This document shows positions 22,003 to 24,535 of a stretch of DNA of 46,508 nt, one piece after another (position 1 is the stretch's first letter; each line of letters opens with the position of its first letter). The notes beneath the pieces were generated by a model. The model had not been told where the DNA came from, made no database searches, and saw nothing but the letters and a program-made list of their open reading frames with translations. The stretch covers positions 1 through 46,508 of the forward strand of contig NZ_SMKL01000048.1 of assembly GCF_004348545.1 (NCBI RefSeq), in the 5' to 3' direction. The position numbers and the translations under genes are program-made. The DNA comes from Jiangella ureilytica. GTDB lineage: Bacteria > Actinomycetota > Actinomycetes > Jiangellales > Jiangellaceae.

Positions 22003-23112
22003 ATGTATGAGCGACTCGACGGGCGGCGGCTGAACCGGGCGACGCTCGCACGGCAGCACCTGCTGGGCCGCGTCGACCGGCGCCCGCTCGACGTGATCAG
22101 GGACGTCGCCGGGTTGCAGGGGCAAGACCCCGATCCGCCGTACCTGATGCTGTGGAACCGCATCGAGGGGTTCACGGTCGACGGGCTCACGTCGCTGCAG
22201 CTGGACCGCTCGGTCGTCCGGGCCACGCTGTTCCGGGGCACGCTGCACCTGGTGGCCACCGACGACTACCTGTGGCTGCGCCCGATGCTCCAGCCGATGC
22301 TCGACCGCTGGCAGCGCGGCGCGTGGGGCAAGGCGCTCGACGGTGTCGACCTCGGGCAGCTGGCCAAGACGGCGACGGGGCTGCTCGACGGCGGCACGCT
22401 CACCCGGCCGCGCCTGAGCCGGGCGCTCTCCGAGGTCTGGCCCGGCCACAGCGCCATGGCGCTGGCCCGCTCGGTGCAGGGCCTGCTGCCCGTGGTCCAC
22501 CCGCCGCCCAACGGCCTGTGGAACCGGCACGGCCCAGCGCACATCGCGCTCGCACGCACCTGGCTCGGCCGGCCGCTCTCACCCGGCGTGGCGCTCAGCA
22601 CGCTCGTCCGCCGCTACCTCGCCGCGTTCGGCCCGGCGACGGTCAAGGACATTCAGGCGTGGAGCGGGCTGACCCGGCTGCGCGAGGTCGTCGAGACGAT
22701 GCGCCCGCACCTGGTCACGTTCACCGGCGAGCACGGCGAGGAGCTGTTCGACCTGCCCGACGCGCCGCGGCCCGATCCCGACATGCCCGCGCCGCCGCGG
22801 CTGCTCGCCCCGCTCGACAACCTCGTCCTCGCCTACGCCGACCGCTCCCGCCTCGTCGGCCCCGGCGCGGCCGCCCGGGTCGGCTGGGAGGCCGCCGTCC
22901 TGATCGACGGCGAGGTCCGCGGGTTCTGGACAGTCGCCCGCGGCGACGACGCCGCCACCCTCACCATCGAGCTGCTCGAGCCACTGACGGGTGACCAGGC
23001 CGGCGACCAGGAGGCCGGTATCGAGGCAGAGGCGGCGGCACTGCTGGCGTTCGTCGCCCCAGCGACCGCGCGCCGCGAGGTCCGGCTGCGGATCCCCAGC
23101 GCGACGGCCTAG
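22003..23112 (+). CDS. winged-helix DNA-binding protein, AlkZ-like DNA glycosylase family
   Basis: 369 residues of the HTH_42 (winged helix DNA-binding domain) family. RQHLLGRVDRRPLDVIRDVAGLQGQDPDPPYLMLWNR is typical, with the predicted catalytic QxQ motif of AlkZ as Gln39-Gly40-Gln41. ATLFRGTLHLVATDDY, and the C-terminal LDNLVLAYADRSRL and GEVRGFW motifs follow. AlkZ-type glycosylases excise bulky alkylated or cross-linked bases, often as self-resistance to DNA-damaging natural products. Only the family is established here, not activity. It appears leaderless. Its TAG stop is in the left terminal repeat of element B. Confidence 0.88.
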   Translation: MYERLDGRRLNRATLARQHLLGRVDRRPLDVIRDVAGLQGQDPDPPYLMLWNRIEGFTVDGLTSLQLDRSVVRATLFRGTLHLVATDDYLWLRPMLQPMLDRWQRGAWGKALDGVDLGQLAKTATGLLDGGTLTRPRLSRALSEVWPGHSAMALARSVQGLLPVVHPPPNGLWNRHGPAHIALARTWLGRPLSPGVALSTLVRRYLAAFGPATVKDIQAWSGLTRLREVVETMRPHLVTFTGEHGEELFDLPDAPRPDPDMPAPPRLLAPLDNLVLAYADRSRLVGPGAAARVGWEAAVLIDGEVRGFWTVARGDDAATLTIELLEPLTGDQAGDQEAGIEAEAAALLAFVAPATARREVRLRIPSATA

Positions 23113-23277
23113 GGTGTGTCTCCCAAGTCTCGGCCGTAGCGAGCGGCGTCCAGGCGGATGCCTCGCAAGGCCGAGGAGGGAGTCATAGCGGGGTTCTATG
23201 ACGACCGACGAGAACGCAGCGAGGCATCCGCCTGGACGCCGCGCAGTAGGCCATGGACTTGGGAGACACACCCTAGG
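23108..23277. repeat. palindromic element B (MITE-like, perfect terminal inverted repeats)
   Basis: 170 bp. Perfect 22-bp terminal inverted repeats occupy 23108-23129 and 23256-23277, each bounded by CCTAGG. A second perfect 24-bp inverted repeat lies at 23143-23166 and 23219-23242. A central hairpin GTCATAG (23182-23188) / CTATGAC (23196-23202) has a 7-nt loop. Its core matches element A at 10982-11145. It contains no gene. The stops of both flanking convergent genes (TAG at 23110-23112 and its mirror at 23273-23275) lie within the terminal repeats. It could be a transposase-less insertion, a structured RNA/terminator, or both. Confidence 0.85.
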
Positions 23278-24535
23278 CGAGCGCCCGCCGCAGTGGAGCG
23301 GCCAGCATCCCGCGCGAGCCGACGTCGATGGCGTCCAGCTCGAGCCAGTCGGCCAGCCGGCGCAGCTCACCGGCCAGCGCGGGTACGACGGCGGCAAGCT
23401 CGGCGCCGTCCTCGGCGAAGGCCCCCGGCACCAGGAGCGCGCCGCGGGCGCGGTCCGCCTTGACGTCGACCCGGGCCACCAGCGCGTCGCCCAGCAGGAA
23501 TGGCAGCACGAAGTACCCGAACTCGCGCTTCTCGGGCTTCACGTACAGCTCGAAGCTGTGCCGGAAGCCGAACAGCCGCTCCACCCGGCCGCGTTCCCAC
23601 AGCAGCGAGTCGAACGGCGACAGCAGCGCCCGGCCGCCGGCCGAGCGCGGCACGGAGACCGGCGCCAGCCAGGCCGGTTCGGCCCACCCCTCCACCCGGA
23701 CCGGCTCCAGCTCGCCGGCCGCGACCAGCTCGCGCAGCCGGGCCCGCGTCTCGACCCCTGGCATCCGGAAGTAGTCGGCGACGTCGCGTGCCGTCGCCAC
23801 GCCCAGCGCGGCCATGGCCCGCCGGACCAGCTCGCGCTGCCCGTCCTCCAGCGACGGCGTGGCCTCGGCCAGTACCGGCGCCGGCAGCACCCGCTCCGGC
23901 AGGTCGTAGAGCCGCTCGAACCCGCGCCGCCCGGCCGCCGCCAGCTCGCCCGCGTCGAACAGCCCCTCGAGCGCGGACTTGCCATCGGACCAGCGGTACC
24001 AGAGCAGCGTCGAGTCGGCGTACTGGTGGTCGATGGCCGCGCGGTCGCGCTGCGCCTTGTCGGTGAGGTCGGTGTAGGCCAGCGGCCCGCGCGCCGCGAC
24101 CTCCGCCGTCAGCGCGTCCAGGTATCCGGGGCGTTCCCGTTCGACGCGGTCGCGGAACCTCTGCCACGACGCCTGCTCGGCCCGCCGGGTCATCCGCCAG
24201 CGCAACGCCGGCTGCAGCTCGACGGGCAGGAGCGACGCCGCGTGGCCCCAGTACTCGAATCCGTGCCGGCGCCGGTACACGACATCGTCGAGCAGCGCCG
24301 GCTCATAGGCGCCCAGCCGCGAGTACAGCGTCAGATAGTGCGAGCGGACCAGCACGTTGACGGCGTCCAGCTGCACCGCCCCGAGCGAGCGCAGCACCGA
24401 CCGCACCCGCGCCGCCGTCACCGCCGTCACCGCCGCACCGTCGGCAGGCGGCCGGTCGAGCAGCTGTGCCCGCAGCGCGATCCGGCGCGCCTGCGCGAGC
24501 GACAGCTCAGGCGACCGCGCCGGCCCGCCGCTCAT
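23273..24535 (-). CDS. YcaQ/AlkX-like winged-helix DNA glycosylase family protein
   Basis: 420 residues. The YcaQ family pattern is clear: LSLAQARRIALRAQLLDRP, then VRSVLRSLGAVQLDAVNVLVRSHYLTLYSRLG, with the QxD catalytic motif of AlkX/YcaQ as Gln55-Leu56-Asp57. Later motifs are RRRHGFEYWGHAASLLP, LLSPFDSLLWERGRVERLFGF, and the C-terminal YGYFVLPFLLGDALVARVD-like stretch. E. coli YcaQ unhooks interstrand cross-links and alkylated bases. It overlaps the ligase gene by ATGA. Its stop codon is inside element B. Confidence 0.92.
   Translation of the reverse strand: MSGGPARSPELSLAQARRIALRAQLLDRPPADGAAVTAVTAARVRSVLRSLGAVQLDAVNVLVRSHYLTLYSRLGAYEPALLDDVVYRRRHGFEYWGHAASLLPVELQPALRWRMTRRAEQASWQRFRDRVERERPGYLDALTAEVAARGPLAYTDLTDKAQRDRAAIDHQYADSTLLWYRWSDGKSALEGLFDAGELAAAGRRGFERLYDLPERVLPAPVLAEATPSLEDGQRELVRRAMAALGVATARDVADYFRMPGVETRARLRELVAAGELEPVRVEGWAEPAWLAPVSVPRSAGGRALLSPFDSLLWERGRVERLFGFRHSFELYVKPEKREFGYFVLPFLLGDALVARVDVKADRARGALLVPGAFAEDGAELAAVVPALAGELRRLADWLELDAIDVGSRGMLAAPLRRALA

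Follow-up and report, generated by a model that had tools for sequence, protein, structure and literature searches.

MITEs are usually taken as IS remnants that are defined by their ends. RUP of Streptococcus pneumoniae, a 107 bp element with a TA-containing target, is thought to be mobilised in trans by the end-matched IS630-Spn1, and the available part of that source reports no other signature of structure or function for it (PMC2229807). ERIC and NEMIS are short mobile palindromes able to fold as RNA, the orientation of ERIC affecting mRNA (PMC2229807), and REP and REPIN are imperfect palindromes found mostly between unidirectional and convergent genes (PMC3733652). The element described here lies in a window (the whole stretch of DNA analysed) of 46,508 nucleotides from Jiangella ureilytica. 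It is probably a recent MITE insertion, moved in trans by an IS5-type transposase with duplication of TA, that carries a strand-specific core within exchangeable ends.

The element and its insertion site

The initial annotation described a 170-bp, fully foldable double palindrome with CCTAGG ends and no coding capacity, placed between two convergent DNA-repair genes. Its two nested perfect inverted repeats (23108-23129/23256-23277 and 23143-23166/23219-23242) are present, and both flanking genes are AlkZ-like (PF06224, E = 1.6e-75 and 1.1e-63). The lack of coding capacity is borne out by three of the longer ORFs crossing the element, which have no match in Pfam. The palindrome is real, but the mobile unit proper is shorter, 162 bp (23112-23273), beginning GGG and ending CCC and bounded by two TA dinucleotides. 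CCTAGG is indeed found at the ends, but as target plus element edge, not as element alone. Similarly, the palindrome folds, but its stem is broken by internal loops, and the central loop is its most conserved part. The features are as follows.

22003-23112, + strand: AlkZ-like gene; its TAG stop (23110-23112) is the target TA plus the first G of the element
23109-23112, no strand: left CTAG; TA 23110-23111 is the putative target duplication and G the first base of the element
23112-23273, + strand (the core strand): MITE copy, 162 bp, GGG...CCC, with a covariance-model match at C111:23143-23242:+
23112-23129, + strand: left terminal inverted repeat GGGTGTGTCTCCCAAGTC, 18 bp, perfect
23143-23166, + strand: 5' inner arm, 24 bp, perfect only in the window copy among the Jiangella copies listed
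23167-23177, + strand: 5' side of the conserved internal loop, AAGGCCGAGGA
23182-23202, + strand: apical hairpin GTCATAG...CTATGAC, variable in sequence, with compensatory changes
23207-23217, + strand: 3' side of the conserved internal loop, GACGAGAACGC, with a covarying S-S pair and possible tandem G.A/A.G pairs
23219-23242, + strand: 3' inner arm
23256-23273, - strand: right terminal inverted repeat, identical to the left
23273-23276, no strand: right CTAG; TA 23274-23275 is the putative target duplication and C the last base of the element
23273-24532, - strand: AlkZ-like gene convergent with the first, start approximate; the same construction gives its TAG stop (23275-23273)

The palindrome arms (23107-23166 and 23219-23278) are 60 nt long and 87% complementary overall, with a 52-nt spacer. 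Folding of 23095-23290 with DNA parameters gives z = -11.9 relative to 200 dinucleotide shuffles, none of which folds as well (0/200). The inner arm is bulged in the usual Jiangella copies, and the 24-bp inner repeat of the window copy is without the bulge. The two convergent AlkZ-like (PF06224) genes stand side by side across 22003-24532, and one of them has matches of about 70% DNA identity elsewhere in Jiangella.

Eleven congeners were compared, of which five have the locus at 84-87% identity, while the rest have only matches of about 70%, taken as paralogues. The element is absent from this locus in all five (5/5). The empty site reads GGCCTAGAAC in G005 and GCTTAA in G004 and G011, and in these three congeners the two stop codons overlap in one uninterrupted palindromic tetramer, CTAG or TTAA; in G001 and G009 the element is also absent, but the junctions differ. 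The window flanks, joined without the element, read GGCCTAGGCG. Together, the empty sites and the joined flanks indicate insertion into a CTAG used as a stop by both convergent genes. A TAG stop is directly visible in the sequence on each side of the insertion, and each gene keeps it through the duplicated TA together with the G at the start and the C at the end of the element. This shared stop codon and the conserved core described below did not figure in the initial annotation, the core not being visible to its reader.

The duplicated unit appears to be TA within a YTAR target. Most young copies lie in CTAG, and at such sites alone a TA duplication and a TA carried by the element give identical sequence. 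However, loci L100, L121 and L144 read TTA-GGG...CCC-TAA, so TA rather than CTAG is taken to be duplicated, and these YTAR variants, with the IS comparison below, argue for duplication. A four-base CTAG duplication was rejected, since these three copies would then have unequal flanks.

Copies in Jiangella and candidate IS5-family partners

A search of the genome for copies with the same termini, proposed with the initial annotation, returned ten full copies including that in the window (6.35 Mb in 168 contigs, the window being contig C111), as well as two internally deleted copies and one hybrid. The nine other full copies are 94-98% identical to the window copy, and all ten have CTA before and TAG after the element (10/10). 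An end-pattern search of the same genome with up to 3 mismatches gave 13 forward and 14 reverse matches, with none for the reversed control. Among congeners, 20 core matches were found in G009 and 27 in G011. The window copy looks young, a recent insertion, and the element is best classed as a MITE: it is short and non-coding, and it has terminal inverted repeats, dispersed copies, empty sites and TA flanks that fit target duplication. A related autonomous element is represented by near-matching, not identical, IS5 ends in G001 and G171.

The hybrid (L074 1501-1593, own C135:25383-25475) is 93 bp long and CTAG-flanked, with one end like that of a G001 IS and one MITE end. A 116-aa ORF on its left stops at the element; the gene end on its right was read by eye only. 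Both terminal repeats are kept in the deleted forms of this genome (L011, C113:107435-107521; L012, C117:26772-26857) and of congeners (L126, L127, L148 and L154), the deleted derivatives measuring about 45-90 bp overall. Some of these internally deleted derivatives may be mobile mini-forms.

The IS with ends of the same kind were found in relatives. Congener G001 has three IS of about 1 kb with ends reading CTA followed by GGGCGTGTCTC(T/C)TAAGTC. These contain two overlapping frames, both above the NF033580 cut-off and also matching PF13340 and PF01609, which assigns them by sequence to the IS5 family. GGGTGTGTCTCCCATATC is present in 5/6 copies of a second IS of G001, including one with ACTA...TAAT flanks, which fit a TA duplication. 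Related ends next to CTA or TTA are seen at further IS5-type loci in G001, G011, G012 and G005; at several others (e.g. L190, L191, L197 and L199) no TA-flanked MITE-like end was seen. A further example comes from a second genus: in G171, the ends GGGCCTGTCTGACAAATG and GAGCGTGTCTGACAATTC, both next to CTA, enclose an IS5-type transposase, and the MITEs of its genus-mates G037 and G104 start GGGAGTGTCTGACAAATG. This transposase shares 54% identity with the query over 159 residues, the search in that genus resting on one query.

The draft genome of J. ureilytica itself yielded no related transposase at E<=1e-15 and, by pattern search, no IS-sized pair of MITE ends. The exact MITE repeat, searched in this genome, G009 and G011, occurs in short pairs and some unpaired ends, with no IS. 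From the ends in relatives, we infer that an IS of this kind mobilised the window element itself. The suggestion that the palindrome is a MITE moved in trans is supported by copies, empty sites, TA flanks and the IS ends of relatives. The sequence is neither single-copy nor conserved at its locus, and related IS ends exist elsewhere.

In the mechanism that we propose, an IS5-family transposase (DUF4096 + DDE_Tnp_1 type) would move the MITE in trans. Insertion would duplicate the TA inside a CTAG that formed the overlapping TAG stops of two convergent genes, and the first G and last C of the element would complete TAG for each gene. The core strand, in RNA or ssDNA form, would fold on itself, most likely aiding the element's own mobilisation, and new terminal repeats would be acquired around the same core, giving it the use of different IS5-type transposases.

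A hairpin core shared by elements with different ends

Homologues with differing ends in other genera have in common the core motif AAGGC-S-GAGGA / GACGA-S-AACGC. Among the 16 elements with assigned ends, out of 26 alignment rows, mean pairwise identity falls from 0.95 in the loop to 0.66 in the inner stem, 0.54 in the apical stem and 0.45 in the terminal repeat; the loop figure is somewhat raised by the partial use of a loose loop motif in recognising elements. In the complete genome G142 the core occurs within three end types (GGCCGTGTCTC..., GG(C/T)CGTGTTGCGAAAGTC and GTGTCGCGTGT.GAAAATT), and G028 has the Jiangella repeat itself, GGGTGTGTCTCCCAAGTC, as well as GTGTCGTGTGAGGGAAGC. We read this pattern as exchangeable ends around a conserved strand-specific hairpin, the process of exchange being deduced from it.

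A covariance model of the core (R1) matches 94/393 genomes sampled in the class (Actinomycetes), in 28/137 genera. In a phylum sample at E<=1e-4 it matches 19/396 genomes, nine of them outside the class. Nine loci of the phylum scan were viewed; the eight from outside the class lack the strict loop motif, and several outside-class loci (L290, L291, L293 and L297-L301) have a variant loop middle such as AAGGCCGCAGGGA / GACTGAGAACGC. Genomes of family f19, genus g24, have up to 36 R1 matches each. An element from this genus matches 40 PLSDB plasmid records, all Streptomyces, and the genus is probably Streptomyces. No match to phage sequences was found for the one element searched; in IMG/VR, three viral contigs (L340-L342) contain the strict core pattern.

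Of the 24 pairs in alignment A1 (26 sequences), 17 show compensatory change, and 93.4% of cells are paired, compared with 79.8% when shuffled. The covariation score is 0.433 (0.205 shuffled, 0.032-0.105 slid), and 0/500 shuffles score as high. One internal pair is G-C in 14 sequences, C-G in 11 and broken in 1. This pair is flanked by GAGGA/GACGA, where tandem G.A/A.G pairs enclosing an invariant G-C could form. For the core comparison, 6/64 Jiangella copies without the strict loop were dropped, and the 77 elements kept were collapsed to 61 distinct cores, so that loop conservation here, as in the strand analysis below, is measured in a set selected in part by a loose loop pattern. A coding reading of the core is not favoured, given in-frame stops in places and spacer lengths that differ by non-multiples of three. 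A literature search that included the core letters as text, and that covered few subscription journals, found no description of it, which leaves room for one in print.

For analysis of strand asymmetry, arms were aligned with symmetric scoring, and 94 elements were kept after a loose loop pattern was required and duplicates were collapsed. On the core strand, G.U mismatches outnumber A.C mismatches outside Jiangella (210 vs 55 in 48 elements; 40 elements with more G.U, 2 the opposite and 6 ties) and within it (225 vs 53 in 46 elements). The complementary strand would carry the reverse ratio. By region outside Jiangella, G.U:A.C is 115:8 in the innermost 20 nt, 49:13 in the terminal repeats and 46:34 in the mostly unpaired middle, which serves as an internal control. 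As 28/48 elements were found with an RNA model that favours G.U over A.C, and as related elements share some wobble pairs, p-values are nominal. The counts are 132:25 in the 28 model-found elements (24 with excess, 1 opposite, 3 ties) and 78:30 in the 20 found with BLAST (16, 1 and 3); in the terminal repeats, which are largely outside the RNA model, they are 33:8 and 16:5, respectively. The covarying helices and the excess of G.U over A.C on the core strand suggest selection on one strand for its ability to fold alone, whether as RNA or as ssDNA.

A simpler explanation would be that this is a plain IS5-derived MITE whose core has no function and is shared only by descent, the covariation of its arms arising by template-switch repair. 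Comparable MITEs are well documented (PMC2229807), and some of the arm covariation may well come from such repair of palindromes: the orthologues L100 and L144, with flanks 97% identical, show two compensated double stem changes of the sort that template switching would make, and the inner arm of the window copy is now perfect. Three further orthologous pairs have one, none and one kept compensated double change. However, template-switch repair would neither keep a loop constant, as seen in its 95% identity against 45% for terminal repeats and 54% for apical stems, nor produce the G.U excess, having no preference for G.U over A.C on one strand. We consider a MITE without a functional core unlikely, though well worth keeping in mind. 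A bolder reading, somewhat less likely than not, is that the conserved, strand-specific folded module is the real replicating unit, which would have spread through Actinomycetota by gaining new terminal repeats time and again and so exploiting different IS5-type transposases, its folded RNA or ssDNA strand aiding mobilisation.

Gene context, replication polarity and known systems

In all ten copies of the J. ureilytica genome, the CTAG at the insertion site doubles as the TAG stop of a neighbouring gene, as compared with 26/101 background CTAG sites (Fisher p = 5e-6). The background comes from 446.5 kb of the same genome, in stretches without other copies and with the window element left out; 26 sites are at TAG stops (2 common to two genes), 62 between predicted genes and 13 inside them. 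Of the stop-adjacent ORFs at the other nine copies, 9/10 tested have a Pfam match, 8 of them above the family cut-off. With copies L003 and L006, which have no such match, scored as misses, 8/10 are at stops (p = 0.001). Such a stop is found, counted by eye, at 30/54 full copies in other Jiangella species, many of which are old and have lost the TA. Outside Jiangella this placement is weaker, with about 11/37 by eye and 2/12 placed copies in G142 (12/15 loci placed; L411, L414 and L415 left out). Between convergent genes lie 30/64 full Jiangella copies and 5/5 of the placed loci from f19 genomes. Gene calls for stop placement, orientation and the CTAG background (Jiangella, other genera and G142) are from a home-made GC-position scorer.

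This placement would suit an RNA element useful to the host, such as a bidirectional terminator or a stabiliser or destabiliser of mRNA 3' ends, as discussed for ERIC and NEMIS. However, it may reflect CTAG targeting and/or purging of harmful insertions, an insertion at such a site being potentially harmless where TA duplication and the edge bases restore TAG on both sides. The element is moreover missing from the locus in all five congeners, and the core strand shows no co-directional excess relative to tandem flanking genes (same/opposite orientation 14/12 in Jiangella, 5/13 among 37 elements elsewhere and 3/5 in G142). Service to the host thus seems rather improbable. The same orientation counts give no support to co-transcription with neighbours as the cause of the strand-specific fold, and they make a context-driven mutation bias unlikely as the cause of the G.U excess. 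As they show no excess of insertions that would place the core strand under transcription from neighbours, a role in mobilisation is weakly preferred over service to neighbours, and it is our best guess for the core.

Agreement of core strand with replication polarity was scored by chromosome halves, using matches of all core types. It is 14/16 in G142, the one genome where the origin was checked (DnaA at record start), and 14/18 in G182, 20/31 in G362 and 7/12 in G260, where a mid-chromosome origin was assumed. In the others it is 6/11 (G226), 4/6 (G383), 12/20 (G009, whose record starts with minus-strand rpoB, so that the split is not at the origin) and 16/27 (G011, with no dnaA among the ORFs viewed at the record start). 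GC skew samples were uninformative for origins. A polarity bias would fit an ssDNA fold and is offered as no more than a lead. It could just as well mean that the strand prone to form hairpins survives less well on the lagging template.

A strand-specific hairpin and a possible polarity bias, strongest in G142, are also what a REP/REPIN-type element moved on single-stranded hairpins by a RAYT tyrosine transposase might show. However, the exact 18-bp terminal repeats, flanked on either side by TA, resemble those of DDE-type IS5, and the ends lack the GTAG tag by which the REP/RAYT association is defined in the consulted part of PMC3733652, making this origin very improbable. Membership of a known structured RNA family is scarcely credible, since no Rfam 15 family is matched at gathering score and the sub-threshold matches, to miRNA and a few other models (one of them in eight homologous loci), are far below cut-off and mostly to eukaryotic miRNA models, to which any long hairpin would fit.

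In the elements described here it is the ends that vary and the internal fold that is constant, across many actinobacterial families. If the core acts in mobilisation, a DDE-type element would contain a single-strand signal working in cis, and this would hint at how so small a parasite switches between transposase hosts. R1 also offers a handle for annotating the repeat, including on Streptomyces plasmids.

Among known systems, the IS5-family IS (NF033580 'transpos_IS5_3') of the same genus are like the MITE in their similar terminal repeats (2-3 mismatches/18 for the G001 IS) and TA-flanked CTAG/YTAR targets. The MITE differs in having no transposase gene, and the similarity, judged by eye, is confined to the ends, an exact partner not having been found. 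The alternative of a REP/ERIC-like element, also raised by the initial annotation, fares unevenly: REP is unsupported, and ERIC fits by analogy only. REP and REPIN differ in that the MITE has no GTAG tag and its TA-flanked ends are those of a DDE-type IS in appearance. RUP is associated with a different IS family and, unlike the MITE with its conserved core, has no other structural signature reported. ERIC and NEMIS differ in host and, it appears, in ends, and among the elements described here the core persists while the terminal repeats change.
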